From Thermincola ferriacetica (GTDB lineage: Bacteria > Bacillota > Thermincolia > Thermincolales > Thermincolaceae): a stretch of DNA of 64,000 bases. Location of the stretch: assembly GCF_001263415.1 (NCBI RefSeq), contig NZ_LGTE01000016.1, positions 1 to 64,000 of the forward strand. Reading direction: 5' to 3'. The notes below the pieces were generated by a model. It saw only the letters and a list, made by a program, of their open reading frames with translations, had not been told where the DNA came from and did not search any database. Positions 19,743 to 48,216 of the stretch are shown piece after piece (positions within the stretch are counted from its first letter, which is position 1; each line of letters opens with the position of its first letter). Made by a program: the position numbers and the translations under genes.

Positions 19743-20807
19743 CTACCTCTTATTATTTTTGTTGCTGTCCCGATATTGAGCCTTTTCTACAGGAGATAAG
19801 CCGCCAGACTTTTTGCCGATGGCTGCTGTAACATTCTCCCAGCAAACTTCATCCAAACTTTTGGGCACCTTACTGATATATCCCGCTTTTTTCATAAACT
19901 CGGCAAATCCCAATAACCCGTACGGAGTGGAAGTATAGTTGGTGCCCGGCCAGGTAAGATATTTTTCCACTTTCTCCGCCGGCATCTTGTAGCTAGGGGC
20001 CAGGATCTTGGCTGCTTCCTCGGGACTGTTATTAATGAAGGTAATTGCCTCATCCATGGCCATGACAAAGGCCGCATAAGCCGTAGGATGGTTATCATGA
20101 AAATCCCTGGTTGCCGAACCCACCAAAAAACCAAACTCGCCGCCAAAGGCATCTTCCCCGTTTAAAACAAGTTCCACTCCCGGTGTATCTAACTCCTCAT
20201 ACAAGTACGGCGGAGCAGAAAAATGGGCGGCAATAGCCCTTTTGCTTACCACGGCAGTAGCTGCATCAGGGTGCTGCATAGACACCAGGTTTTTGTCCAT
20301 GGCTTTGGGGTTGCCCAGTTCCTTTTCCGCGGCCATGGCCAACAGCATATGTTGAATACTGCCGGAATAGGGGGTCGCTATCTTATCTCCTATCTTAAAG
20401 TCCTTTAATGACTTTAAATCCTCGCGGTAGGTCACCAGACCCAGGGGCGCAGTCCCGAGGGCTGTACATATCTTCCAGTCAGCGCCTTTATCCCATGCTA
20501 TCCAGAAGGGCGTCTGCCCCGTAAACCCAATATCCAGGTCGCCGGAAACCATAGCCTCTCTGATCATTTCCCCACCCATCTGTTTCCATTCCACCTGAGC
20601 CCCCGGCAGGTACTTTTCAATCAGTTTCTTTTCCTTCACAATTTGCACCGGCGCATAGCCAAGGCCATATTGTATAGCAATGCGAATTTTTTCGCCCGAA
20701 TAGCCGGCTGCCTGATTTTGGCTCCTTTTGGAGGTCGTACATCCCGCAACAAAGAGTACGGACAATATCAAGAGCAGCGCTATCAAAAATCCGGTTATTT
20801 TTTTCAA
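19743..20807 (-). CDS. ABC transporter substrate-binding lipoprotein, NMT1/SsuA-like
   Basis: The 354-residue lipoprotein has a signal peptide ending at the lipobox VAGC (residue 23). Its two lobes come in the normal order: IRIAIQYGLGYAPVQIVKEK opens the first lobe and the GQTPFWIAWDKGADW region follows. It belongs to the NMT1/TauA/SsuA group that binds sulfonates, nitrate or related anions. It is the first gene of the importer operon, and the lipid-sugar genes lie 51 bases upstream in the same direction. Compare the island protein at 40441, whose lobes are in the opposite order. Confidence 0.9.
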   Translation of the reverse strand: MKKITGFLIALLLILSVLFVAGCTTSKRSQNQAAGYSGEKIRIAIQYGLGYAPVQIVKEKKLIEKYLPGAQVEWKQMGGEMIREAMVSGDLDIGFTGQTPFWIAWDKGADWKICTALGTAPLGLVTYREDLKSLKDFKIGDKIATPYSGSIQHMLLAMAAEKELGNPKAMDKNLVSMQHPDAATAVVSKRAIAAHFSAPPYLYEELDTPGVELVLNGEDAFGGEFGFLVGSATRDFHDNHPTAYAAFVMAMDEAITFINNSPEEAAKILAPSYKMPAEKVEKYLTWPGTNYTSTPYGLLGFAEFMKKAGYISKVPKSLDEVCWENVTAAIGKKSGGLSPVEKAQYRDSNKNNKR

Positions 20808-23990: not shown

Positions 23991-26213
23991 ATGAAAAAAC
24001 GCTACAGCGCCATTTTCCTGGCATTAACTCTGGTATTGTGTCTGACTTTGGCAGCGCCTGCCTTTGCAGAAACGAAAACCATGGTACTGAAAATCGGCGA
24101 CCCAAAATTTACTGTGGGCAATGCCGCTCAGGAAGTTGACCCGGGCAGGGGTACAAAACCCGTTATTGTTAAAGGGAGAACGCTTGTACCAATTAGAGCA
24201 ATTGTCGAAACCATGGGCGGCACAGTTGAATGGGCAGCCGCCGAACAAAAGGTTACTGTCAAGGTACTGGACAAGACCGTTGAACTATGGATTGGCAAAA
24301 CGGCTACCATTGTCAATGGAGCCAGCAAAAACACTGATGTTGCGCCGCAAATTATAAACGGTCGGACAATGCTTCCTGCCAGGTTTGTAGCGGAAAACTT
24401 AGGCGCTACTGTCAGTTGGGACCCGGCTACCCAGTCTATTCCAATAACCTTTGACAGGCCTACTGATTTTGCCCTGATCGCCAAAGCCGCTGACAAAGCC
24501 CTGAATGCGGAAACCTTTGCGGCAACCATTAACCCGGAAACCCTTTACGACGCCATCAAAAAAGGAGATAAGAGCTACTTCCTGCTCAGCATCCAAAGCC
24601 GTGAAGATTACGCCAAAGGACACGTACCCGGCGCCATTAACATTCCTTTTAAGGAAATAGCCAAAAAGGAAAATCTGGCTAAACTACCCAAAGATAAGAA
24701 GATTGTGGTTATCTGCTACACCGGCCATACCGCTAGCTATACCGCTATGTTTTTAAATCAGCTCGGCTACAACGCCACCGTTCTCAAGTACGGTACCGAA
24801 GGCTGGAATGACAAGACTGCCGGGATGGGTACCGTTGCACTTTACCCCGGTTCCAAGGGTTACGAGGTAGAAACAACTCCTGTTGCTGCAACAACCAATG
24901 AACTGCCGGCAACAAAAACAAGTACATCTTCCGTAGATGACATAATCATCAACGCCACTGATACATTCCTTAATTCCGGCAAAGCTGCAACCATTAGTCC
25001 GGAAGCCCTTTACGACGCCATCAAGAAAGGCGACAAGAGCTACTTCCTGCTCAGCATCCAGAGCGCTGAAGATTACGCCAAGGGGCACGTGCCCGGCGCT
25101 ATCAATATTCCTTTCAAAGCAATCGCCAAGGAAGAAAACCTGAAAAAACTGCCCAAAGATAAGAAGATTGTAGTTATTTGCTATACCGGTCATACGGCCA
25201 GCTACACCGCCATGCTGCTCAACCAGCTTGGTTATGATGCTACCGTTCTCAAATACGGTACTGCCGGCTGGAACGATAAGACCGCAGGTTTAGGTACTGT
25301 GAAGCCTTACCCCGGTTCCAAAGGATATGAAGTAAACACCAGCAATGACTTTGCAGTAATTGCCGCCGCTGCCGATAAGTTCTTAAATGCTGCCAACTTT
25401 GTGGCAACCGTTAACCCGGAGGACGTTAAGGCTAATCCTAACAAGTACTTCCTTTTAAGTATCCAGAGCGCTGAAGACTATGCCAAGGGACACGTGCCCG
25501 GCGCTATTAACATTCCTTTTAAGCAGATAGCCAAAAAGGAAAACCTGGCTAAACTGCCGAAAAACAAAAAAATTGTCGTTATCTGCTACACCGGCCACAC
25601 GGCCAGCTATACCGCTATGTTCCTGAACCAGTTGGGTTACGACGCCACTGTACTCAAGTTCGGTACCATGGGCTGGAATGATAAGACTGCCGGTATGGGC
25701 GCCGTTAAGCCTTACGCCGGTTCCAAGGGTTACGAAGTAGAGACTAAGGCCGTTGCGGCAACTGTTAACGAACTTCCCAAGGTAATTACCGGTTATGAAG
25801 CACAAGAGGATATCATCATCGCAGCGACCAACGCTTTCCTCAACTCCGGTAAACCTGCCACTGTTAACCCGGAAGACGTGAAAGCCGATCCCAGCAAATA
25901 TTTCCTGCTCAGTATCCAGAGCCCCGAAGATTATGCCAAGGGACATGTTCCCGGTGCCATTAACATTGGCTTCAAAGCTATTGCAAAAGAAGAAAACCTG
26001 AAAAAACTGCCCAAAGATAAGAAGATTGTCGTTATCTGCTACACCGGCCACACGGCCAGCTATACCGCCATGCTGCTCAACCAGCTCGGCTATGACGCCA
26101 CCGTTCTCAAGTTCGGTACTATGGGCTGGAATGACAAGACAGCCGGTATGGGCGCCGTTAAACCTTATGCCGGTTCCAAAGGTTATGAAGTAAAGCAGGG
26201 CGTTAATCCCTAG
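23991..26213 (+). CDS. Secreted protein with copper-amine-oxidase-like N-domain and four rhodanese domains
   Basis: The 740-residue protein has a signal peptide ending APAFAE (about residue 26). A copper amine oxidase N-terminal-type domain follows (about 30-155; GRTLVPIRAIVETMGGTVEW, GRTMLPARFVAENLGATVSW). Four rhodanese domains each carry VICYTGHTAS; their Cys lie at residues 242, 397, 532 and 683. The domains are very alike, as are their DNA repeats. Rhodaneses move or bind sulfane sulfur, so this is probably an extracytoplasmic sulfur-handling protein. It starts at ATG 23991 with GGAGGG upstream. It interrupts the lipid-sugar locus on the opposite strand. Confidence 0.9.
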   Translation: MKKRYSAIFLALTLVLCLTLAAPAFAETKTMVLKIGDPKFTVGNAAQEVDPGRGTKPVIVKGRTLVPIRAIVETMGGTVEWAAAEQKVTVKVLDKTVELWIGKTATIVNGASKNTDVAPQIINGRTMLPARFVAENLGATVSWDPATQSIPITFDRPTDFALIAKAADKALNAETFAATINPETLYDAIKKGDKSYFLLSIQSREDYAKGHVPGAINIPFKEIAKKENLAKLPKDKKIVVICYTGHTASYTAMFLNQLGYNATVLKYGTEGWNDKTAGMGTVALYPGSKGYEVETTPVAATTNELPATKTSTSSVDDIIINATDTFLNSGKAATISPEALYDAIKKGDKSYFLLSIQSAEDYAKGHVPGAINIPFKAIAKEENLKKLPKDKKIVVICYTGHTASYTAMLLNQLGYDATVLKYGTAGWNDKTAGLGTVKPYPGSKGYEVNTSNDFAVIAAAADKFLNAANFVATVNPEDVKANPNKYFLLSIQSAEDYAKGHVPGAINIPFKQIAKKENLAKLPKNKKIVVICYTGHTASYTAMFLNQLGYDATVLKFGTMGWNDKTAGMGAVKPYAGSKGYEVETKAVAATVNELPKVITGYEAQEDIIIAATNAFLNSGKPATVNPEDVKADPSKYFLLSIQSPEDYAKGHVPGAINIGFKAIAKEENLKKLPKDKKIVVICYTGHTASYTAMLLNQLGYDATVLKFGTMGWNDKTAGMGAVKPYAGSKGYEVKQGVNP

Positions 26214-34157: not shown

Positions 34158-35414
34158 CTATAAGTCAGATTTTATTCCCATGGCTTTGGAAACAAGCTCG
34201 GCAAAATGATAGAGCTTTATCGGCGAACCATTTTTCTCCGCTCCTCCTGCCAGACCGGAATAACAGGTCGGGCACGGAGTTGTCAGATAACCTGCTCCCG
34301 TTGCCTCCGCTTCCCTGATCCGGTAAACGGAAGCTGCTTCCTGAAGGTCATGGTTCGCCATTTTAAGTCCGCCACCAACCCCACAGCATCTGGAATATTG
34401 CCGGTTCCTCTCCATTTCGACCAGCTCCAGTTGCGGGATGGCCCGCAGTACTCTGCGGGGCGCTTCGTATATTCCGTTATGTCTGCCCAGCAAACACGGG
34501 TCGTGATATGTTATCTTGCCGGGTATAGGGACATTAAGGCTGATTTTCCCTTCAGCAAGCAAAATATCTATATATTCGGCCAGATGGTAGACCTTAAAAT
34601 TCTGCCTGCCGATTTTGCTGTAGTCCTGTTTTATAGTTTTGTAACAACCGGCACAGGCCGTCACCAGTGTATTTATGCCAAGAGTGTTGAGTTTTTCGAG
34701 ATTGGCCCGGGCCAGACTTTGAAACTCGGGATCCCCGATCCTCCTGAGTTTTCCATAGCAGCAGAATTCATCGGGCCCCAGAATACCGAACGGAATCCCC
34801 GCATAACTGAGGATATTGGCTGCATGCTGGGAAACCAGGTTGATCTTCTCATCAAAACTGGCTGTGCAGCCCAGGAACAGTAAGACCGGCGCCAGGTTAA
34901 CCTGGATAAACTCAGGTCTTGCCAGCAGAGTTCCTTTCGCCAGTCCTTTCTCAATCCAGTCCGTCCTGGCCGATTGTTCCTTCTTATATGGATTGCCATA
35001 CTGTTTTAAGGTCTCACAATATGTTCTGGAATCCGGTGCGGGACCTAACCGTGACACAAACATTGCTTCCCGGATGTTTTCCCATAACTCAACGGTATCA
35101 ATCCTTACCGGGCAGACAAAGTGACACTGGTTGCAACAGGAACAGTCATACAAACGCCTGCTGAAATTATCAAAAATATCAGGATTTATTTCCGGCTTAA
35201 ATAATTTCAGTCCCAAGAAGCCGGAATACTGACTCCGCAAAATATCCTTCAGATATTTCATTTTGGCCCTTGGGGTAACATCTTCCTTATTCTCCAGAGT
35301 ATACACCGGACACCATTTCTGACACTCCCCGCATCTTGTGCAGGCATCCAGACTCATCAACTGTCTTGGGCTCAGTTGGTCAAGAGGCAGCTTTGGTGTT
35401 TGCACTGTCACCAT
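34158..35414 (-). CDS. Heterodisulfide reductase HdrD-like Fe-S protein
   Basis: The 418-residue protein has two ferredoxin clusters (CTRCGECQKWCP at 25-36; CSCCNQCHFVCP at 91-102). Two CCG domains follow, one with FLGCTASF and FCCYGKLRRIGD, the other with SRCCGVGGGLKM and TPCPTCYSGL. This is the HdrD/GlpC layout for electron transfer to a disulfide or a membrane quinone. The ATG at 35414 is 11 bases after GAGGAG. It overlaps the NarI-like cytochrome b gene by 35 bases, so they form a complex. It probably handles electrons of the methyltransferase island. Confidence 0.88.
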   Translation of the reverse strand: MVTVQTPKLPLDQLSPRQLMSLDACTRCGECQKWCPVYTLENKEDVTPRAKMKYLKDILRSQYSGFLGLKLFKPEINPDIFDNFSRRLYDCSCCNQCHFVCPVRIDTVELWENIREAMFVSRLGPAPDSRTYCETLKQYGNPYKKEQSARTDWIEKGLAKGTLLARPEFIQVNLAPVLLFLGCTASFDEKINLVSQHAANILSYAGIPFGILGPDEFCCYGKLRRIGDPEFQSLARANLEKLNTLGINTLVTACAGCYKTIKQDYSKIGRQNFKVYHLAEYIDILLAEGKISLNVPIPGKITYHDPCLLGRHNGIYEAPRRVLRAIPQLELVEMERNRQYSRCCGVGGGLKMANHDLQEAASVYRIREAEATGAGYLTTPCPTCYSGLAGGAEKNGSPIKLYHFAELVSKAMGIKSDL

Positions 35415-36189
35415 AGTATAAATCACTCCTCATTCTTTCCTCGGAAGCATTTAAAACAATTTCCAGCGGGCTGCTTATTATATGAAGCAGTTTGCTGTGC
35501 GGAAGGTAAGCAAACAACAGAGCATTCAGCGTTGAATGACAGACCCACAAGCCCGTTGCCACAGCCTTAATGCCCGGCATCCCGCGCAACAATCCGGCCA
35601 ACTGATACCCGAAAAAAGAATACTGCAGTGCAGGTGTTGGCTCCGCCAGAGCAATTCTGGCCGCCTCCAGCAGAAATCCTGTAAGGACCAGTACAAAGAG
35701 GATTACCAGTGTTACTGAATCATAAAAATCTGTATCCAACTGGCTGTCCCTGAGTATATAACGCCTGATAAAAGCCACAACCAGACCGGTTAAGATGAAC
35801 AGGCCAAATAAATCCCCTGCTGCTTTATAATAATTATGCCCCTGCCCGTAAAGCATGTAAAGACTTAAACCGGAACCCCGGGGAATTACCGTTTCCAGAG
35901 CAACTGCAATTGCTGATAACAACAGCAAACCCATAAATCCGTAAAATATGGCCATATGGGCAAACCAGCGGATGAAACTTTTTTCCGCCAACTGTTTCTG
36001 AAAAAGGACTTCCCGCAAGAATGCCCTCAACATGATCAGATAATCAGGCTTTTTATACAGTGATTTTCTTTGGGCTTTAAAGTAAAAGGATATTTTATAC
36101 GCCATTCCTGATGCAAACAGCAGCAGGCCCAGAGACTGTACGATCCAAAAATATATCCAGGGTTTATAGTAAAGTTCATTCATCTCCAT
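35380..36189 (-). CDS. NarI/HdrE-like membrane cytochrome b subunit
   Basis: The 270-residue protein has five or six membrane spans and resembles the nitrate-reductase-gamma / HdrE group that binds heme b. His residues occur within spans (RWFAHMAIFYGF; LWVCHSTLNALLF). I chose ATG 36189, inside the CobW gene's 3' end, with GGGGAAGG upstream. It overlaps both neighbours (14 bases with the CobW gene, 35 with the HdrD-like gene). It probably anchors that protein and connects it with the quinone pool. Confidence 0.8.
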   Translation of the reverse strand: MEMNELYYKPWIYFWIVQSLGLLLFASGMAYKISFYFKAQRKSLYKKPDYLIMLRAFLREVLFQKQLAEKSFIRWFAHMAIFYGFMGLLLLSAIAVALETVIPRGSGLSLYMLYGQGHNYYKAAGDLFGLFILTGLVVAFIRRYILRDSQLDTDFYDSVTLVILFVLVLTGFLLEAARIALAEPTPALQYSFFGYQLAGLLRGMPGIKAVATGLWVCHSTLNALLFAYLPHSKLLHIISSPLEIVLNASEERMRSDLYYGDSANTKAAS

Positions 36190-37090
36190 GCACCAACCTT
36201 CCCCTGATGGTTTTTTCCAGTCTAGCACGGTCAATTTCACGCCCGATAAACACCAGCCTGTTTTCCCTGTTTTCTCCCATGCTGTCTATTTCCCGGAAAT
36301 TGGTCAGCCCATGCACCCAGTCAAATACCTGTAGACCTTTTTCGGTTCTCACAATTCCTTTGGCCCTGAATATTTCCCCATATTCTTTGCTGTCCAGACC
36401 AGCCAACAGAAATGCCAGCCCGGAACGATGCATGGCACCCGGAAAGATAAAAGACTCCGCCTGAAAATCCGGCGAAAAGTGTATATGCGTAACTTCACCT
36501 TTTGCTGTAATGCCGGGAAGCTCCGTCTGGCAGTAAACTGTCGGGATAATCAGCGCTGCCGGATTGACAGACAAAATCATTTCCTTGCAGCGGTTTATAT
36601 CCTCTTTATCCACCAGGTCTGCCTTGTTAAGCAGGATAATATCCGAATTCAAAATCTGATCCTTAAAAAATTCTCCTATATCGTCCATATCACCAGGAAG
36701 TACTACATCAACAAAGAACACAGAATCAATGATCCCCACTACCGGCGCCAGTTCAATTTCAGCCCGGAAATCAGCATTCTTTAGGGCCAGAATAACAGAA
36801 GAGGGAGAAGCTATTCCCGAGGGCTCAATGAGCAGTTGCCCGGGAGCATATTTTTCCATTATCTCTCTAACCGCATCCACCATGCTTTTTCTGAGGGTAC
36901 AACAGATACAGCCACTCGGCAGTTCCACCACACTGAAGTTGCCTCCTTCAGAAATAACATCTCCATCGATACCGAGTTCCCCCAATTCGTTTACCAGGAC
37001 AACCGTGTCAAAGGCCTGCTGCCGGAGCATTTTTTTCAGGAAAGTAGTTTTCCCTGCTCCCAAGAATCCGCATATCAGTTGTATTTTCAT
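36176..37090 (-). CDS. CobW/COG0523 family GTPase (metallochaperone)
   Basis: The 304-residue GTPase has Walker A GFLGAGKTTF, the metal-binding SGCICCTLR (Cys 61, 63, 64), the guanine motif NKADLVD and a C-terminal CobW domain with HIHFSPDFQ. ATG 37090 follows AGGTGGG. COG0523 proteins deliver metals such as Zn or Co, or act in cobalamin and metalloenzyme maturation. In this operon with corrinoid proteins it may serve a metal- or corrinoid-dependent step; that is an inference. Confidence 0.88.
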   Translation of the reverse strand: MKIQLICGFLGAGKTTFLKKMLRQQAFDTVVLVNELGELGIDGDVISEGGNFSVVELPSGCICCTLRKSMVDAVREIMEKYAPGQLLIEPSGIASPSSVILALKNADFRAEIELAPVVGIIDSVFFVDVVLPGDMDDIGEFFKDQILNSDIILLNKADLVDKEDINRCKEMILSVNPAALIIPTVYCQTELPGITAKGEVTHIHFSPDFQAESFIFPGAMHRSGLAFLLAGLDSKEYGEIFRAKGIVRTEKGLQVFDWVHGLTNFREIDSMGENRENRLVFIGREIDRARLEKTIRGRLVHGDE

Positions 37091-38846: not shown

Positions 38847-39599
38847 TCATTCAGAAAGGCCTTCAGACATTGCTCCTTCAATCATGGCCAGGATCCTTCG
38901 TCTGAGACGGCAGAACTCAGCACCTGTTCGGTCCCGCGGCCGGGGCAGGTCAAGTTCAAGGATTTGTTTTATCCTCCCCGGTTTGGAGCCCATAACGACT
39001 ATCCGTTCAGCCAGGAATACCGCTTCATCTATGTTATGGGTGACAAATATAACTGTTTTTTTCTCTCTGTGCCATAAATCAACCAGATCAGCCTGGAGCC
39101 TGTTCCGGTTTAAAGCGTCAAGGGAGGCAAAGGGCTCATCCATCAGGAGCAGTCTGGGATTATAAGCCAACACCCGGGCAATGGCTACCCGTTGCTTCAT
39201 CCCGCCGGATAGTTGTTTCGGGTAATAATGCCTGTATTCAGCAAGACCGACTTTCTGCAAAGTATAATCAACGGTCCGGTCCCACAAGTTTTTGTCAATA
39301 TTCCTGGCCCTGAGGGCAAATTTAATATTTTGTTCCACCGTATACCACGGAAAAAGGGTATCTTCCTGAAAAACAAATCCAATCTCACCTTTTTCCAGTG
39401 ACAGAGGCGCTTTGTCCAGTAAAACCCTACCCTCTACAGGCTTATATAGCCCGGAAATAATTCTCAGCAGTGTGCTCTTTCCACATCCGCTGGGCCCGAC
39501 TATGCAACAAAAACAACCCTCCTCCACTTCCAAATCCAGCTTTTCAAAGATCTTTATTTCTTTAAACCGGTGGGTAACACCGCTTAAAACTAACGCCAT
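38847..39599 (-). CDS. ABC transporter ATP-binding protein, TauB/SsuB-type (island importer)
   Basis: The 250-residue subunit has Walker A GPSGCGKST, the signature LSGGMKQRVAIARVL, Walker B RLLLMDEPFASLDA and FVTHNIDEA. It overlaps the permease gene by 10 bases. With the permease and the permuted binding protein it forms the importer of the methyltransferase island. Substrate is unknown; the class takes up small anions such as sulfonates, nitrate or thiamine precursors. Confidence 0.93.
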   Translation of the reverse strand: MALVLSGVTHRFKEIKIFEKLDLEVEEGCFCCIVGPSGCGKSTLLRIISGLYKPVEGRVLLDKAPLSLEKGEIGFVFQEDTLFPWYTVEQNIKFALRARNIDKNLWDRTVDYTLQKVGLAEYRHYYPKQLSGGMKQRVAIARVLAYNPRLLLMDEPFASLDALNRNRLQADLVDLWHREKKTVIFVTHNIDEAVFLAERIVVMGSKPGRIKQILELDLPRPRDRTGAEFCRLRRRILAMIEGAMSEGLSE

Positions 39600-40426
39600 T
39601 GTATCAACCTCTCTTCCAGGAAGAGAACCATTCTGTTTATAGCCGTACCCACCAGCCCGATAGCTATTATGCCGCTGATAATTTCAGCTTCCCGGCCCCC
39701 GATGGAATATGAAGACCAGATATAATATCCGATACCCAGTTTACCCCCAACAAATTCTGCTGCTACAATGCACATCCAGCCAACACCAAAGCCGACACGG
39801 ATCCCGTTAAATATCGACGGCAAAGCCCCGGGTAACATTATCCTTGTTAGGATCTGCCACCGGGATGCTCCCATTGTCATGGCCGCTTCCACGTAGATAC
39901 CGCTGACCATATTAATCCCGTGAATTGTATCAAGCAAAACAGGGAAAAAAGCGCCGATAAAAACCACAAAAACCTGCACACACTCAGTAGGACTGCCTGC
40001 TCTGGCAAAAATAACATATGCCAGCGGTATCCAGGCCAGCGGCGGAATAGGCCTTAACATTTCCAAAACCGAGTCAACATATTGCCTGACCCAGGTTACC
40101 GTTCCCATTAAAATGCCCAGGGGAATCGCTACCGCGAAACTTAACAGACACGCCTTGATAACTATCTGCAAACTTGACCAGACTATCTCCACCAGTGTCT
40201 TGTTAAAAAGCGGGTCTCCATATACAAGTAAATATATAAATGTCTTTATTGTTTCCCATGGCGACGGCAGTTCCAGCAACCGAAGACTGACCAGTACTTG
40301 CCAGAGTCCCAGCACAGTAATAATTGACAGGACTCTTAGGAAAACCCAATTAATCTTTTTACGGAAACAGATACCTTTCAGTTGAACATTTGCAGTTTCT
40401 GCCGGCGGGCAAATAAACCAGTCCAT
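39590..40426 (-). CDS. ABC transporter permease, TauC/SsuC-type (island importer)
   Basis: The 278-residue membrane subunit has about six spans and the EAA loop YVEAAMTMGASRWQILTRIMLPGALPSIFNGI. It overlaps the ATPase gene by 10 bases and lies 14 bases after the binding-protein gene. The N-terminal 25 residues before the first span are polar and the true start might be later. It is the channel part of the island importer. Confidence 0.9.
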   Translation of the reverse strand: MDWFICPPAETANVQLKGICFRKKINWVFLRVLSIITVLGLWQVLVSLRLLELPSPWETIKTFIYLLVYGDPLFNKTLVEIVWSSLQIVIKACLLSFAVAIPLGILMGTVTWVRQYVDSVLEMLRPIPPLAWIPLAYVIFARAGSPTECVQVFVVFIGAFFPVLLDTIHGINMVSGIYVEAAMTMGASRWQILTRIMLPGALPSIFNGIRVGFGVGWMCIVAAEFVGGKLGIGYYIWSSYSIGGREAEIISGIIAIGLVGTAINRMVLFLEERLIQWR

Positions 40427-40440
40427 GAAATATCATCCTT

Positions 40441-41529
40441 TTATTTGATTATTGGCCGCAATCCATTATTCTTCAGCGCTTTGTCCAATAAAGTAAATTG
40501 CACGGTGCCCAATCCGGGAACAGCAATGGTTTTGCCCTTCAGGTCCGCCACCGAATTGATGGCCGTATCGTTTCTGACAATCAGGCCGGACCCTTCATTA
40601 TTAGCCCCGGCAACCACCTCGACGGGAATATTGTCATTGATCCTTTTCAGCGTGGCCGGAGCTCCCCCCAGGTATGCCATATCTATGTCTTTTGCCTTAA
40701 AAGCTTCCATAACAGCGACACCGTTAGGAAAAACCCTGGTTTCCAGGTTTCGTCCCGGCAGCAGACCGACTTTGGCATAGTAACCCTCTTTTTCGGCAAC
40801 ATACATGGCTAACTGATGCAGGTCATAATTCAAATAACCGACCCTCAGCCTGGTATTGTCCGCAACCGGCTCCGGTACCCAATCAGAATTCCTGTCCAGT
40901 CTGTCAGCCACATCCTTATAAACGGATTCCTGCAAAAACGCGGCAAAAAAACTGTCTCTGTCCTGATACCCAAGGTCACTCACCGACCTTTTGATAAGGC
41001 CGCCCTGTTCCAAACTGTTATAATAATCCTGAAATTCTTCCTTGGCGGGATATTCAACATAAGTAATATTGGCCAACGCCTTTTCTGCCACATCGGGACT
41101 CTTCCCGGTGAATTCACTGGCATATTTAATAACCTTATCCCTGTTAGCGGGATCATTAATAAACCTGGTAGCTTTTATATGTGCCCAAACAAAGGCTTCG
41201 ACCGCTTGCTTATCTTGAAAATTACCACTTACAGCAACCACACAACACGGATGATTTTGCCAGACATCCGGTGACTTAAATAAGTATTTGCCCTGACCGG
41301 CTTTAGCGGCCACCGTACAAAACGGTTCCCAGGCCACAAAGCCGTCAATCTCCCCCGCTTTTAGCTGTTCCAACATGTTAGTGGGAGCTGTCTGCACCAG
41401 ATATACAACATTGTCCTTTTTGTCAGCAGCCTGCTGAGAACCGTTATCTTTCTTTTTCGGACCTGAACACCCACTCAGAAGCATAATAACAAGCAAAAAC
41501 GCAATTACAGAAAAAACCCTTACTTTCAT
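40441..41529 (-). CDS. ABC transporter substrate-binding lipoprotein, NMT1/TauA-like, circularly permuted
   Basis: The 362-residue lipoprotein has a signal ending in LSGC (Cys 21). Lobe order is reversed relative to the family. Residues 40-215 match the usual second half (QTAPTNMLEQLKAGEIDGF, VAWEPFCTVAAKAG, NHPCCVVAVSG). Residues 227-362 match the usual first half (LRVGYLNYDLHQLAMYVAEK, AYLGGAPATLKRI, ADLKGKTIAVPGLGTVQFTL), and the protein stops at ALKNNGL, where the normal chain would continue into its second half. ATG 41529 has GGGAGGTAG upstream. The gene is intact and is the first of the importer genes. Confidence 0.88.
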   Translation of the reverse strand: MKVRVFSVIAFLLVIMLLSGCSGPKKKDNGSQQAADKKDNVVYLVQTAPTNMLEQLKAGEIDGFVAWEPFCTVAAKAGQGKYLFKSPDVWQNHPCCVVAVSGNFQDKQAVEAFVWAHIKATRFINDPANRDKVIKYASEFTGKSPDVAEKALANITYVEYPAKEEFQDYYNSLEQGGLIKRSVSDLGYQDRDSFFAAFLQESVYKDVADRLDRNSDWVPEPVADNTRLRVGYLNYDLHQLAMYVAEKEGYYAKVGLLPGRNLETRVFPNGVAVMEAFKAKDIDMAYLGGAPATLKRINDNIPVEVVAGANNEGSGLIVRNDTAINSVADLKGKTIAVPGLGTVQFTLLDKALKNNGLRPIIK

Positions 41530-41635: not shown

Positions 41636-42691
41636 TTATCTCTTTTTGCGGGCCCACTTTTCAGCGCCGTATTTTTTGGTAGTTTCCACCATTGCCTTCA
41701 TATTTTCCATGGGAGCTGTGGGCCAGATATCGCAACTGGGCCAGATAGCATCAGCACTGCCTTCGAGAGCCTTGATAACTGCTGCTTCCACATCTGCCGG
41801 GCTGCCAGTAACAAGAACATTATAAGCGTCCACATTGCCGAATAGGAGGGTGTCCCAGCCAATATCATCCCGGCTCATTAACAGATCGTTGCTCTGCTCG
41901 ACAGAAATAGCCGGAGCACCTGTCCCCTTCATGATGGACATAATCGGGTTCGTCTTACCGCACATATGCAGCACAGCCGGGCACTTAATTTCGGCCAGCG
42001 CTTCAAAGACTCTCTTCAGGTGAGGAGCGATTACATTTTTAAATACTTTTGGACTCAGTACATCAGTCGGAGCGCCCATTTCCCTGACGGTAATATAATC
42101 CGCTCCAGCCGCATGGTACGCTTTAGCTATTTCAATGATTACAGTAGCCAACCGGTCCAAAGTGGCATTAACCAGGTCAGGCTTTTTAAAAGACAGCTTC
42201 AACAGGTCGTTAAGGTCCATCAGTTGCCCTGCCAGGGTAAAAGGCCCGAGCACATAAGTGCCTACAGCCACTTCGTTTCCTATATCTGCCTGGAGCAGTT
42301 TAATCGCCTCACATACTACCGGTACCCGGCCACGGGAAGAAATATTGTCAGGGATGGGGAAGGTTGTCATTTCATCTTGCGAATGGCAAACCTTCTCTTT
42401 GATAGTCGGATAAAGAAGATTGGAAACATCCTCATATGGATTCATCACACAGCCGATAGCCTCAGCCTCCACGCAGAGGTCATAAGGAACTACAGCACAC
42501 TCGTAGCCAAAAAGCCGGTAGGAAGTAGCGGCTGTTTCAGCCAGCTTTTTGGCGTCACCATGAACAGTGGCAAATTTGTACCCCAGTTGGTCAAGTCCCG
42601 CAGTAGTAACATTGCCCATTCCGCTGAAGCAAGCCGGCCTGTCAGCTTCTTCGCCCTTTAAAATTTTTAAAACTCTCTCTTTAGAATTCAT
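41636..42691 (-). CDS. MtaA/CmuA-type methyltransferase, uroporphyrinogen decarboxylase family (1)
   Basis: The 351-residue protein is of the URO-D fold family used for methyl transfer from corrinoid proteins. It has MNSKERVLKILKGEEADRPA at the start and LHMCGKTNPIM, which holds the likely zinc-ligand His and Cys. ATG 42691 has GGGGGG upstream. It lies 16 bases after the MtrH-like gene. MtaA/CmuA proteins move methyl groups between corrinoid protein and a C1 carrier such as a pterin or thiol; the direction here cannot be read from sequence. Confidence 0.85.
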   Translation of the reverse strand: MNSKERVLKILKGEEADRPACFSGMGNVTTAGLDQLGYKFATVHGDAKKLAETAATSYRLFGYECAVVPYDLCVEAEAIGCVMNPYEDVSNLLYPTIKEKVCHSQDEMTTFPIPDNISSRGRVPVVCEAIKLLQADIGNEVAVGTYVLGPFTLAGQLMDLNDLLKLSFKKPDLVNATLDRLATVIIEIAKAYHAAGADYITVREMGAPTDVLSPKVFKNVIAPHLKRVFEALAEIKCPAVLHMCGKTNPIMSIMKGTGAPAISVEQSNDLLMSRDDIGWDTLLFGNVDAYNVLVTGSPADVEAAVIKALEGSADAIWPSCDIWPTAPMENMKAMVETTKKYGAEKWARKKR

Positions 42692-42707
42692 AGTTTTCCC
42701 CCCAATA

Positions 42708-43676
42708 TTAGTCATGTACCGGGAGGGCCTGCTGGTCTCCCGACTTCAGCTTCTCAACAAAGTCTCCGAAAAACTTATACAGCGGGTGATTTTCATTTGA
42801 CGGTAATTTCCCTGTTTCATAGAATCCCATAGTGGCTGCCATTACCGCACCGGAAACTACTGCCGGGAACATCTTGGGGGCTGCAACGATGGGGCCGTAG
42901 AAAATAAAGTCGGACCATAACAGCGCCGAGCAGCCCTGCCCCGAAGCATTCATAGCCGCAAAACCGTCTGTTCCAAACAGTTCACGGGCCTGTTTCCACA
43001 TGTACGTACCATTTGAACTGGCTACACCGCAAGGCCACCCGGTAGCTTCTTTAACAATCCGGTTGGCTACTCCGGAAAAGGCTATGGCCGGCAGATTCAT
43101 GACCGAGGTGTCAATGAGGATGGATTCAAAAGTCCCTTCCCCAATCATCTCCATCATCTTATTAAAACTGGTTAATCGGCCGTTCGGAGAAGGATCGGTA
43201 ACATCATAAGCCTGAACAATCACATGCTTTATGCCCATTTCCTTCAATGCCTTGACCTGTCCGGGAATGTCCTTATCCCAGGGGGTAATACTGTTGTAAA
43301 CCAAACGATCCTGCAAACCCTTCTTGGCAATGTATTCTGCTGCTTCCAGCCTGGGTTTTTCCATCCACATGTCAATTGCAAATGCCCGGTCACTGATACT
43401 GATAAACCAGTCCACATACCTGGCCATTTCTTCCGCCGAATTGGCCACCATAGCGGTAATTGCCGGAATACCTGTCTTGTCTTCCAGTTCTTCCTGCCTT
43501 TTTATATATTCCTCTGCTTTGGCCCTGTCCCACTTGCCTTCTTTCCTGCTTTCCAGTATTTTGTCCCCGTTATGGAACATAGAAGAAATCAGAAGTGGGG
43601 GATTTTCACCATACTGTCCGCCAACTTTAAAATGGCCGATCTGGCAAACTTTCTGTGGTTTCTCTAATTTAAACAT
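42708..43676 (-). CDS. MtrH-like methyltransferase
   Basis: The 322-residue protein matches tetrahydromethanopterin S-methyltransferase subunit H along its length. It opens MFKLEKPQKVCQIGHFKVGGQ; GIPAITAMVANSAEEMARY and FESILIDTSVMNLPA are further family segments. In bacteria MtrH relatives transfer methyl between a corrinoid protein and tetrahydrofolate. Here it sits with two MtaA-type genes and corrinoid genes, so it is the likely link to folate. A hairpin at 43726 lies between it and the upstream gene. Confidence 0.85.
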   Translation of the reverse strand: MFKLEKPQKVCQIGHFKVGGQYGENPPLLISSMFHNGDKILESRKEGKWDRAKAEEYIKRQEELEDKTGIPAITAMVANSAEEMARYVDWFISISDRAFAIDMWMEKPRLEAAEYIAKKGLQDRLVYNSITPWDKDIPGQVKALKEMGIKHVIVQAYDVTDPSPNGRLTSFNKMMEMIGEGTFESILIDTSVMNLPAIAFSGVANRIVKEATGWPCGVASSNGTYMWKQARELFGTDGFAAMNASGQGCSALLWSDFIFYGPIVAAPKMFPAVVSGAVMAATMGFYETGKLPSNENHPLYKFFGDFVEKLKSGDQQALPVHD

Positions 43677-43782: not shown

Positions 43783-44829
43783 TTAGTATTTCCACTCTCT
43801 TCCTGTTTGCAGATATGCATGAATGTTTTCAACCGGCGTTCCGGGCGGAATATCACATCCGGGTAAAAGAACATAACCTCCGTCAAGGCCTGCCTTCTGG
43901 ATACATTCTTTGGCTGATGCAATAATTTCTTCCTTGGTGCCGTTATTTAACACAAACACGGGATGAGAGTTGCCCCCGATGCACATCTTGTCGCCAATTT
44001 TGGCGTGTGCCACAGCTAAGTCTACCTTCATGTCAATGGCAATACACTGAGCTCCCGTCTCCGGGAACAGTTCCAGGCTCTTGGTCGTGTCCCCACAGAT
44101 GTGCAGGAACCGGGCGCATCCCAATTTTTGTACTTTGCCATGGAACTTCTGCAGCCCAGGAAGGGCAAATTTCTTGAACATCCTTGCAGATACAAGGTCA
44201 CCGGACGCTGTTGCATCAGCAACAGCGGTTGCCTCTATAGCCCCTTCTTTAATCATAGGCTCATAGAAATAGTAGACAATTTCAGTGGCAAAATCGATAG
44301 TCCGGGCAACTATATCGCCTTTTTTGAACATATCCTTCATCATTCTTTCCACGCCGTACATCTGGGCAGCCAGAGAAAAGGGGCCCCAGGCCGTAGCCGA
44401 TACCAGGTAATCATCGCCGATAGCCTCATGTACGTACCGGGCAGCTTCCCAGATAGTATTGACCACCGGATCACTGGCCAGAGTGGCGCGGACATCAGGA
44501 TATTTTTCAATCAGCCTGTCCAGGTCTTCATCATTGTTGATCAGCGGTTCTTCCAGGTCAGGAGCGCCGACAGGACGGTATTTTATCCTCCCGCCAAAAG
44601 GCTGTAAATGCACGTTGTTATAACCCGAACCCACATACACCATGTCAGACTGGATTTCCTCATTGACCCTGATAATCATATCCGCCATCTCTCTGGGCTT
44701 CCCAATCAAGCCGTCAAACGTGTTACCGGTATGCTTCATGGTCCACACGCCACCACCGTAAATGATGGCGGGCACCCTCTCCGGTTTCTTGTTTTCAAAG
44801 GCTGTCAGTACACACTCTTTAGGTTTCAT
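43783..44829 (-). CDS. MtaA/CmuA-type methyltransferase, uroporphyrinogen decarboxylase family (2)
   Basis: The 348-residue URO-D-family protein starts MKPKECVLTAFENKKPERVPA and has RFLHICGDTTKSLELF with the likely zinc ligands. ATG 44829 has GGAGGTG upstream; the longer frame lacks support. Paired with the MtaA-type protein at 41636, one may act on the substrate and the other on the folate side, or each may serve a different corrinoid protein. Confidence 0.85.
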   Translation of the reverse strand: MKPKECVLTAFENKKPERVPAIIYGGGVWTMKHTGNTFDGLIGKPREMADMIIRVNEEIQSDMVYVGSGYNNVHLQPFGGRIKYRPVGAPDLEEPLINNDEDLDRLIEKYPDVRATLASDPVVNTIWEAARYVHEAIGDDYLVSATAWGPFSLAAQMYGVERMMKDMFKKGDIVARTIDFATEIVYYFYEPMIKEGAIEATAVADATASGDLVSARMFKKFALPGLQKFHGKVQKLGCARFLHICGDTTKSLELFPETGAQCIAIDMKVDLAVAHAKIGDKMCIGGNSHPVFVLNNGTKEEIIASAKECIQKAGLDGGYVLLPGCDIPPGTPVENIHAYLQTGREWKY

Positions 44830-44869
44830 TTTCGCACCTCCATTTAAAATGAGGCCCTTCACAACCTGT

Positions 44870-46819
44870 TTACTTATATCCGGGAATCCTGTCAAGAATA
44901 TGCTGGATACTGGGGAATGGATCAACAGCATGTGGAAAAGCCATTGCTTCGGCAAAACGCTCCTGGAAGTCAGGTTCGACCGCTGTCTCTACAAACTGGA
45001 CACTGGCCGCCACATCCCGGGCCTCAATCCGCTTGTTTTTGTCAAGCAGCGCTGCCTGAGCGCCGTCACCGGCGGCATTACCGACTGCATGAACCTTTTC
45101 CAGATCACAGTCAGGGAACATGCCAATAACCATGGAAGATTCTTTATCGATAAAACTTCCAAAGGCGCCGGCCAGAGTTACCCGGTCCACCTTCTCAACA
45201 CCCAAGTGGCGCATCAGCATCTTTGCTCCAACATACAGAGCAGCTTTAGCCAATTGTACAGCCCTGATATCACCCTGGGTCACCGTGATATCTTTGCCAA
45301 TACCGCTGTCCTCTGCAAATACCAGGACATATTCCGGCTTGCCGTTTTCATCCTTGCGAATACGGTCTGTCTTGAGCTTGGTGTTAAAACGGCCGGTCTT
45401 GTTAATGATTCCTGCCTTGAAGACTTCTGCCACCATGTCGATGATACCGGACCCGCAGATACCCTTGGCATTACCCTTACTGCCGCGGCCATGCCACTTG
45501 TCGTCACCGATTACCTTGTATGTACACTCCAAGGTTTCCGGATCAATCTTGATTTTTTCAATTGCTCCGGGAGCGGCACGCATACCGAACTTGATCTGCG
45601 CACCCTCCAATGCCGGGCCGGTAGCACAGGAAGTTGACAGCAGTTTCTTTCTGTTACCAAGGTCAATCTCGCCATTGGTACCGATATCGATAATCAGGCG
45701 TATTTCATCATCCTGCTTATATGGTTCTTCAGCTATCAGTACCGCTACGTTGTCAGGTCCCACGAAACCTGCTTCCACCGGTAAGACATGAATGTTGGCA
45801 GCTTTGTTGATCTTGATTCCCAGGTCGCGGGCTTTAACATCGTATGGAGCGCTGATGGCCGGCGCAAACGGGGCCCTGCCCATATATTTGGGTTCCAGGT
45901 TCAGCAGGCAGTGGTGCATCGCCGTGTTGAACACCAAGGTAATTTCCAGCACATCATTGGGCGTCAGGCCGACCTTTTCGGTCATCCGCTGAGCCAGGGT
46001 GTTTATCCCTTCAATTATGGCCTGATGTAGCTTCTCACGACCGTCTTCGTGCATCATGGCGTACGTAATCCGGGACAGTACATCCTCACCGTAACGAACC
46101 TGCGGGTTCATCATCCCATCCTTGACAAGCATTTCACCCGTGCTCAGATCGCACAAGTAGGCTGCCACAGTGGTTGTTCCGACGTCTATGCCAATACCGT
46201 ACCATTTTTGTACAAATCCAGGCCTGACGTCAATTATTTCCCGGTCATACAAAACACTTGCCGTTACCTTCCAGTCGCCGTCTCTGAGGATGTTGGGCAG
46301 TTCCCTCAGCACAAAGTAATCTATGCTCAGATTTTCCAGGCCAAACTGTTCCTTCAAAGCGTCCTGCAGCCGGCGCAGGTCATCCCTGTGGTCTTCCAGA
46401 GTGGCCGGCGGCATTTCGACATAATAGCTTTTCACTGCCGGATCGAGCTTAAAGGTCCTTTCCTTGCCGGTATCCAATACAACCTGGTCTGCTTTGCGGC
46501 TTTCTTCCGGGACAAATACCAGCACATCCCCCTTTATCTCAGCAGCACAGGCCAGGCGATAATTGTTGGCAATTTCGTCTTCTTTGAGCAATTTCTTCTC
46601 TTCTTCGGTTAACGGCGAAAGATGATCCATCTGTGAATCTATGCCGAATTTCTCAAAAAATCCGGTTTCAATTTTTACTTTACACTTGCCGCATACCTTA
46701 TGCGCTCCACAAGGTGCCTCGATATCAACCCCCAGCTCATGGGATGCTGTCAAAAGGGTTTTCCCTTCCGCAACCTTTCCCCGGCGGCCGGAGGGCTGAA
46801 ATATCACATTATACTCCAT
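44870..46819 (-). CDS. Corrinoid activation protein (RACo-like), ferredoxin plus ASKHA domain
   Basis: The 649-residue protein has an N-terminal [2Fe-2S] domain with Cys 37, 43, 46 and 91 (APCGAHKVCGKCKVKI; RLACAAE). The ASKHA ATPase-like domain (from about residue 210) has GIGIDVGTTTVAAYLCDL and IDIGTNGEIDLGNRKK. RACo proteins reduce Co(II) back to Co(I) at the cost of ATP. Its gene lies directly after the corrinoid protein gene (35 bases) and before the methyltransferases. Both corrinoid proteins are likely clients. Confidence 0.92.
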   Translation of the reverse strand: MEYNVIFQPSGRRGKVAEGKTLLTASHELGVDIEAPCGAHKVCGKCKVKIETGFFEKFGIDSQMDHLSPLTEEEKKLLKEDEIANNYRLACAAEIKGDVLVFVPEESRKADQVVLDTGKERTFKLDPAVKSYYVEMPPATLEDHRDDLRRLQDALKEQFGLENLSIDYFVLRELPNILRDGDWKVTASVLYDREIIDVRPGFVQKWYGIGIDVGTTTVAAYLCDLSTGEMLVKDGMMNPQVRYGEDVLSRITYAMMHEDGREKLHQAIIEGINTLAQRMTEKVGLTPNDVLEITLVFNTAMHHCLLNLEPKYMGRAPFAPAISAPYDVKARDLGIKINKAANIHVLPVEAGFVGPDNVAVLIAEEPYKQDDEIRLIIDIGTNGEIDLGNRKKLLSTSCATGPALEGAQIKFGMRAAPGAIEKIKIDPETLECTYKVIGDDKWHGRGSKGNAKGICGSGIIDMVAEVFKAGIINKTGRFNTKLKTDRIRKDENGKPEYVLVFAEDSGIGKDITVTQGDIRAVQLAKAALYVGAKMLMRHLGVEKVDRVTLAGAFGSFIDKESSMVIGMFPDCDLEKVHAVGNAAGDGAQAALLDKNKRIEARDVAASVQFVETAVEPDFQERFAEAMAFPHAVDPFPSIQHILDRIPGYK

Positions 46820-46854: not shown

Positions 46855-47520
46855 TTATTGCATATCTTTCAAGGCCTTAACCATGTTCAGCGCCTCTTTC
46901 AAGGCGTTATTGGCATCCTTGGCAAAACCGTCGGCCCCCCACTTACCGGCCAGGTCTTCAGAAACCGGAGCTCCACCGATCATAATCTTGCATTTGGGGT
47001 TCTTCTCTTTTACTTTTTTAATGATTTCCGGCATCCCAACCATAGTAGTGGTCATCATCGCCGACAAGCAAAGTAAATCCGAGTCGGTCTTTAACTGTTC
47101 TTCTACGAATTTCTCCAGGGGAACGTCACGCCCCAGGTCATGCACCTCAAAGCCAGCCACGTCAAACATCATCTTCACAATATTCTTACCGATGTCGTGC
47201 ACATCACCCTGTACTACGCCCATAACAACTGTTCCTTTTACACCCATATCCTTCTTCTGAATGTGAGGTTTGAGAATCTCAAGGCCGGCATACAGAGCAT
47301 CGGCACACATCAATATCTCAGGTACGAAATATTCCTGCTCTTCATAGAGTCTGCCAACCTCATTCATACCTTCCACAAGACCCTCAAATACAGCCCTGTA
47401 AGCGTCAATACCCTCACCAACAACAGCCTGGGCTGCCTCCCTTACCGCATCTTCATCATAATCAATAACTCCCTGCTTCAATGCTTCAAACAACTCTTTT
47501 TCTCTTTCTGCACTTGCCAT
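46855..47520 (-). CDS. Corrinoid methyl-carrier protein (MtaC/MtbC-like), first copy
   Basis: The 221-residue protein has an N-terminal B12-binding cap helix domain (about 1-90) and a B12-binding domain with GDVHDIGKNIVKMM, in which DxHxxG binds cobalt. VHDLGRDV and IMIGGAPV complete it. ATG 47520 has GGAGGT upstream. It is the first gene of the methyltransferase operon. It accepts the methyl group from the substrate methyltransferase and is reactivated by the RACo-like protein. Confidence 0.92.
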   Translation of the reverse strand: MASAEREKELFEALKQGVIDYDEDAVREAAQAVVGEGIDAYRAVFEGLVEGMNEVGRLYEEQEYFVPEILMCADALYAGLEILKPHIQKKDMGVKGTVVMGVVQGDVHDIGKNIVKMMFDVAGFEVHDLGRDVPLEKFVEEQLKTDSDLLCLSAMMTTTMVGMPEIIKKVKEKNPKCKIMIGGAPVSEDLAGKWGADGFAKDANNALKEALNMVKALKDMQ

Positions 47521-48216
47521 AAATGAAAACCTCCTCCGAAGAATTTTGAATTCTAAACAATTGCCTACCAAATGATATGAAATCTTACTCTGACCCGGAA
47601 AACCGTTTCACCTCCCTTTTACCTGCCAATTTGTTTATAGCGGCCGCAATTAACAATTAGCATTATTTGGTTCATAAATATTTCACTGATGCTAAATACG
47701 GGGATAACAAAAACCCCTTAGCTCGGTTTTTTGTTTTTATCATACCTCTTTTAACTCCCCTTTTTAATTAAACTTCCTTAAACAGTCATTTTGTGCACCC
47801 AAACGGTTTTCTTCCGCCTCTTACTGGTTTTATTGGTTCATTATAATTTTACTTATACTACATAATTAGGCTGTAAAAAACGCCCCTAAACCCTTTATTT
47901 TCATGGTTTTTAGGAACTTTCTTCCATGACTGCATATCTTCTGCAGATCCTGCAAACCTGTCAAAATCACATTGGGAAAAGATATTTTTGGACATACTGA
48001 CAGTGTCGCCCAACGGTTTTATAGTTGTCCCCAACGGTCGAAATCGAACCGCAAATGGTTTATTTGGTTAATCAAAGTTGTGCCTATGCTGAAAAAATTG
48101 CAGTAAACTTTTATTTATTTCTTTCCAAAAGTTATATCTTGTGTTAAAATGTTTTTTAAAAAATATAATTCGTAAATAATAACATATCGGTAAAATCATG
48201 ATTAAGGGGTTTTGTC
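47521..48216. promoter_or_regulatory. Divergent regulatory region between the methyltransferase operon and XRE gene
   Basis: No gene is seen in these 696 bases. They must hold promoters for both directions. CCCAACGGT occurs twice (near 48009 and 48032) with related CAAACGGTT near 47800, a possible operator. A TATAAT lies at about 48162. I found no clear sigma-54 site. Confidence 0.55.

Follow-up and report, generated by a model that had tools for sequence, protein, structure and literature searches.

The gene at positions 40441-41529 of the window (the whole 64,000-nucleotide stretch of Thermincola ferriacetica DNA analysed here) encodes a circularly permuted substrate-binding lipoprotein, and only one origin of the permutation is observed. 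The swapped order is a real rearrangement, not a sequencing error, and the protein belongs to an old, conserved family. The protein is probably working and most likely binds substrate for the importer encoded next to it. We put at about 92% the probability of the proposal as a whole, namely that a cluster-F lipoprotein was rearranged once, refolded and now serves that importer. The gene is divided as follows.

40441-41529, reverse strand: circularly permuted substrate-binding lipoprotein, 362 amino acids (profile and PDB sequence matches, model, half-profiles)
41416-41529, reverse strand: residues 1-38, signal peptide with the lipobox LLSGC (Cys21), then a short linker (sequence)
40882-41415, reverse strand: residues 39-216, normally the second segment in SsuA/TauA-type proteins (AGEIDGFVAWEPF, NHPCC), which opens with the strand that follows the cut and closes with the C-terminal helices (profiles, alignment)
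40849-40881, reverse strand: residues 217-227, new linker from the old C-terminus to the old N-terminus (alignment)
40444-40848, reverse strand: residues 228-362, normally the first segment (RVGYLNYDLHQLA ... GKTIAVPGLGTVQFTLLDKALKNNGLRPIIK) (profiles, alignment)

The first-pass annotation had described a good start and an intact frame, and both hold: a GGGAGG ribosome-binding site lies just 5' of the ATG at 41529, and the 362 codons are unbroken by a stop or a frameshift. The lipobox cysteine, Cys21, is invariant in all 12 aligned permuted proteins. The end of the chain, previously placed at ALKNNGL, needs a small correction, the true C-terminal end being ALKNNGLRPIIK.

The same annotation had also proposed that the halves are swapped, which is borne out by independent matches. 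In Pfam, NMT1_2 positions 151-250 correspond to residues 39-136 of the permuted protein and NMT1 positions 6-119 to residues 241-359; in NCBIfam, SsuA_fam positions 1-127 correspond to residues 228-357. Sequence alignment with Escherichia coli TauA (6ssy) gave the same order, with TauA 18-127 on residues 245-359 and 129-211 on residues 41-121. The first part (approximately 39-215) is therefore the second half of SsuA/TauA/NMT1-type proteins and the last part (approximately 228-362) the first half. Since the two TauA pieces abut in the normal protein, the chain does end where a normal protein continues into the segment that opens this one, as had been suggested. None of the alignments with TauA/SsuA-type proteins puts both halves in normal order. 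Homology to the SsuA/TauA/NMT1 family (cluster F) extends across both lobes, but the normal sequence of parts is lost. The SsuA_fam score of the permuted protein, 131 bits in two swapped stretches, does not reach the curated cut-off of 163.5. The binding protein of the other importer (19743-20807) has the normal order already noted for it, with SsuA_fam 1-278 on residues 41-315.

Normal proteins can be read straight through the junction, for example VQDFLLKKALIRNGIGLKEVKIIVVKPPEMI; permuted proteins end at ...LLDKALKNNGLRPIIK and start, past the signal peptide, at ...VVYLVQTAPTNML. At the other join, the old C-terminal helix VYKDVADRL (compare ILKEILQR, which ends normal proteins) leads through a W/P linker, in which W217 and P219 are invariant in the alignment of permuted proteins, to the old first strand RLRVGYL. 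The permuted homologues align end to end, the C-terminal GLRPxIK included. Both segments are thus homologous to one protein but swapped, with the old ends joined and the new ends at one site, which places the protein among natural circular permutants. Classification of all fetched open reading frames by half-profiles gave 18 permuted proteins (17 full-length, one partial), 48 normal and none ambiguous. This clean split, together with permuted homologues at 43-79% identity, indicates that the swapped order is not due to chance.

Homologues were sought in 61 related genomes, then in 399 genomes of the same phylum, and in further searches, which added G1067, G1070 and a copy split across two contigs in G1084. 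Full-length permuted homologues numbered 19, spread over 14 genomes and seven families (f1, f2, f5, f14, f39, f48 and f108) of one phylum. Partial permuted copies lie at contig ends in G005, G007 and G1084. One copy in G005 (L049:3-975) is seemingly broken near its start, with a stop and a change of frame, and runs off the contig end; L053 carries another partial copy. The contigs of the T. ferriacetica genome hold one permuted locus and four normal ones. No permutant turned up in two other phyla, that of a Syntrophaceae bacterium (395 genomes) and that of an Actinomycetota one (247 genomes): matches outside the phylum at E≤1e-25 cover halves only, whereas full-length permutants match at E 1e-120 or below over nearly their full length. 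In the plasmid search all matches were below 60% identity, the best, from Methylocystis iwaonis, having the normal order.

In five close pairs of permuted genes dN/dS was 0.08-0.24, indicating purifying selection. The earlier impression that the gene looks functional is supported by these values and by the conserved importer partners. The unusual order is in itself the sole feature to suggest an assembly error or a functionless pseudogene, and we regard either as having a negligible probability in view of the intact frames, low dN/dS, good start and lipobox; an assembly artefact was rejected because the same order is kept in 14 genomes.

The closest normal-order relatives found belong to two other phyla and share the motifs DLHQ, WEP and HPCC with the permuted proteins. 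Against these relatives the two halves score a mean of 98 and 97 bits, compared with 42 and 43 against other normal proteins. In trees of the separate halves a single branch sets the permuted proteins apart, with support of 99 and 59, the weak value being that of half B alone. When the halves were rejoined in normal order, the permuted proteins formed one clade (support 100/97), with one change of order in 100% of bootstrap trees. The rejoined tree includes one long outgroup branch (N_L024) and was rooted at the midpoint; for the direction from normal to permuted we therefore rely on the wider family having the normal order. No intermediate stage of a duplication was seen, and no remnants of a missing second copy were found near the gene.

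It could be argued that a deletion between the tandem genes of two different binding proteins left a truncated half of each, fused into one. Exactly the swapped order would result, and in related genomes (G001 and G002) the whole island does occur in tandem. We consider such an origin very unlikely. The normal-order proteins closest to one half are also closest to the other, at equal scores, and the half trees agree; HPCC and DLHQ, motifs carried by the halves, occur together in those proteins. A chimera of unrelated fragments was rejected on these grounds, and fusion of two fragments, raised earlier as a possible objection, is likewise unlikely. Moreover, if the tandem copies were nearly identical, such a deletion would simply be circular permutation by duplication and truncation.

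Structure prediction agrees with a permuted bilobed fold. The AlphaFold model of the permuted protein (pLDDT 85, pTM 0.81) is less confident than that of the normal-order relative L077 (pLDDT 92, pTM 0.85). The normal string of elements, E H H E H E H E E H E H followed by E H E H E H E H...H, is predicted to appear in the permuted protein as the second block and then the first, so that its elements would be a circular shift of those of L077, consistent with the bilobed fold of cluster F. Foldseek keeps chain order, and the normal-order model served as the control. This model gave 1284 PDB matches at E≤0.001, headed by a zinc-bound Staphylococcus aureus binding protein, CmpABCD regulatory domains, TauA and SsuA (for SsuA/TauA/CmpA, E 1e-22 to 1e-17 and rmsd mostly 2.6-4.8 Å); the permuted model gave 34. 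Its best match was OpuAC (E 1e-5, rmsd 14 Å, TM 0.33/0.42), and no SsuA, TauA or CmpA crystal structure in the PDB was matched in the manner of the normal model.

The neighbouring genes, all on the reverse strand, are listed below.

34158-35426, reverse strand: HdrD-like Fe-S protein (resemblance)
35380-36240, reverse strand: NarI-like membrane subunit (Pfam Nitrate_red_gam)
38847-39599, reverse strand: ABC importer ATPase, ABC_tran (profile)
39590-40426, reverse strand: ABC importer permease, BPD_transp_1, 14 bases downstream of the permuted gene (profile)
41636-42715, reverse strand: URO-D family methyltransferase-like protein of the same island, kept beside most permuted genes (profile, synteny)
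42708-43676, reverse strand: MtrH-family methyltransferase (profile)
43783-44955, reverse strand: second URO-D family protein (profile)
44870-46819, reverse strand: RACo-type corrinoid activation protein (profile)
46855-47571, reverse strand: corrinoid protein (sequence resemblance; conserved in syntenic islands)

The importer partners reported earlier are indeed present, and with its export signal, lipobox and adjoining permease and ATPase genes the protein has the hallmarks of an ABC-importer binding protein. Flanks were read for 17 full-length permuted genes, and in 15 cases the permease and ATPase genes come immediately after. The two exceptions, which lack ABC partners, are paralogues in G001 and G003 (L051:5253-6326 and L052:7420-8493) about 45% identical to the 40441-41529 protein. 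These paralogues, and the new anchor that would sit on the other lobe, leave some room for a protein that has given up its role in the neighbouring importer and acts, for instance, as a tethered sensor or scavenger. Given the arrangement at the other 15 genes, we judge this improbable, and service to the importer is the reading that we prefer.

The island around most permuted genes encodes a corrinoid protein, RACo, two URO-D proteins, MtrH, CMD, an Fe-S protein, DUF6951, CobW, and NarI- and HdrD-like proteins. On contig 17 of G001 (L044/L046) and of G002 (L047/L048) the methyltransferase-importer island occurs as two complete tandem copies, and a separate permuted binding protein is encoded in each. 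Normal-order relatives at L136, L137, L138, L139 and L141 lie near genes that by eye resemble tungsten aldehyde oxidoreductases (AOR-like), L136 and L137 also near methylmalonyl-CoA-mutase-like ones. Many normal-order relatives, too, have NarI- and HdrD-like neighbours, and AOR-like ones, so context does not fix the cargo; our guess is a methylated substrate of the corrinoid methyltransferase island. Elsewhere in the window, 23991-26213 (forward strand) encodes a 740-residue protein with, by eye, a stalk of repeated rhodanese-like units (YFLLSIQSxEDYAKGHVPGAINI four times).

We propose that an ordinary cluster-F (SsuA/TauA/NMT1/CmpA-type) binding-protein gene in a Bacillota ancestor was rearranged once, presumably by duplication and then truncation. 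A short linker, D-x-x-W-x-P, would have come to connect the old C-terminal helices with the old first strand, and the new ends would have arisen in the loop where the helix that finishes in ALKNNGL gives way to the strand starting VVYLVQ. The chain is predicted to refold to the same two-lobed clamp. Its new N-terminus would act as a tether, and the small molecule caught outside the cell would be passed to the permease and ATPase encoded downstream; at this locus that molecule is probably a methylated compound, or some other ligand that the corrinoid methyltransferase island uses. Mapped on the cluster-F fold as known, the cut falls within the second lobe, which the lipid anchor would therefore now hold. 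It is conceivable, if rather doubtful, that the permutation is adaptive, the shift of the anchor from the first lobe to the second, which is free in normal members, altering clamp opening or importer docking, and that it was for this reason fixed once and then retained throughout a phylum.

The nearest known relatives are normal-order SsuA_fam (TIGR01728) proteins such as L077, L081 and L107, which share homology in both halves, the HPCC, DLHQ and WEP motifs, and permease and ATPase genes next door, in many cases along with HdrD- and NarI-like ones. They differ in having the normal order, in scoring 177-201 bits (three tested) against 131 for the permuted protein at the cut-off of 163.5, and in other surroundings, such as genes AOR-like by resemblance. 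The shortfall means that curated profiles undercall such genes, and further permutants may lie unrecognised among binding proteins. Sequence alignment covers parts of both halves of E. coli TauA (6ssy) and, in SsuA (2x26), the N-terminal half, but these proteins differ in the order of halves and give no good sequential superposition of the permuted model. In open-licence papers we found no permuted SsuA/TauA-type protein and nothing useful on the corrinoid methyltransferase island.

Laboratories produce circularly permuted binding proteins as scaffolds for biosensors, but natural examples on record are few, to our knowledge. In Treponema pallidum, TpMglB-2 (Tp0684) is a natural circularly permuted ABC-importer binding lipoprotein, tethered and clade-conserved, with a Type I / cluster B fold that binds glucose, as established by a crystal structure and binding data; strands 1-3 of its N-lobe have moved to the C-terminus, and it has a fourth lobe crossover (PMC4990184). 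Although both are permuted tethered lipoproteins, the events are unrelated and the folds different: the profile matches of the 40441-41529 protein are to NMT1/SsuA, not to cluster B sugar-binding proteins, which sets it apart from the TpMglB-2-like Type Ic / cluster Bc. OpuAC on the one hand and ProX and molybdate-binding proteins on the other form a circular-permutation family according to CPSARST, inferred from structure alone at below 24% identity (PMC2395249). That case is similar as a structural permutation among binding proteins, whereas here homology is evident in sequence; the superposition of OpuAC on the permuted model is too poor to claim the same topology. Natural permuted binding proteins were thus already known, and the SsuA/TauA-type case is a new variant. 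Its cut and linker are readable residue by residue, and its closest normal-order relatives found adjoin similar importers. Plain sequence homology and a legible cut and linker would permit a direct test of how moved ends and a moved anchor affect folding, ligand closure and docking.
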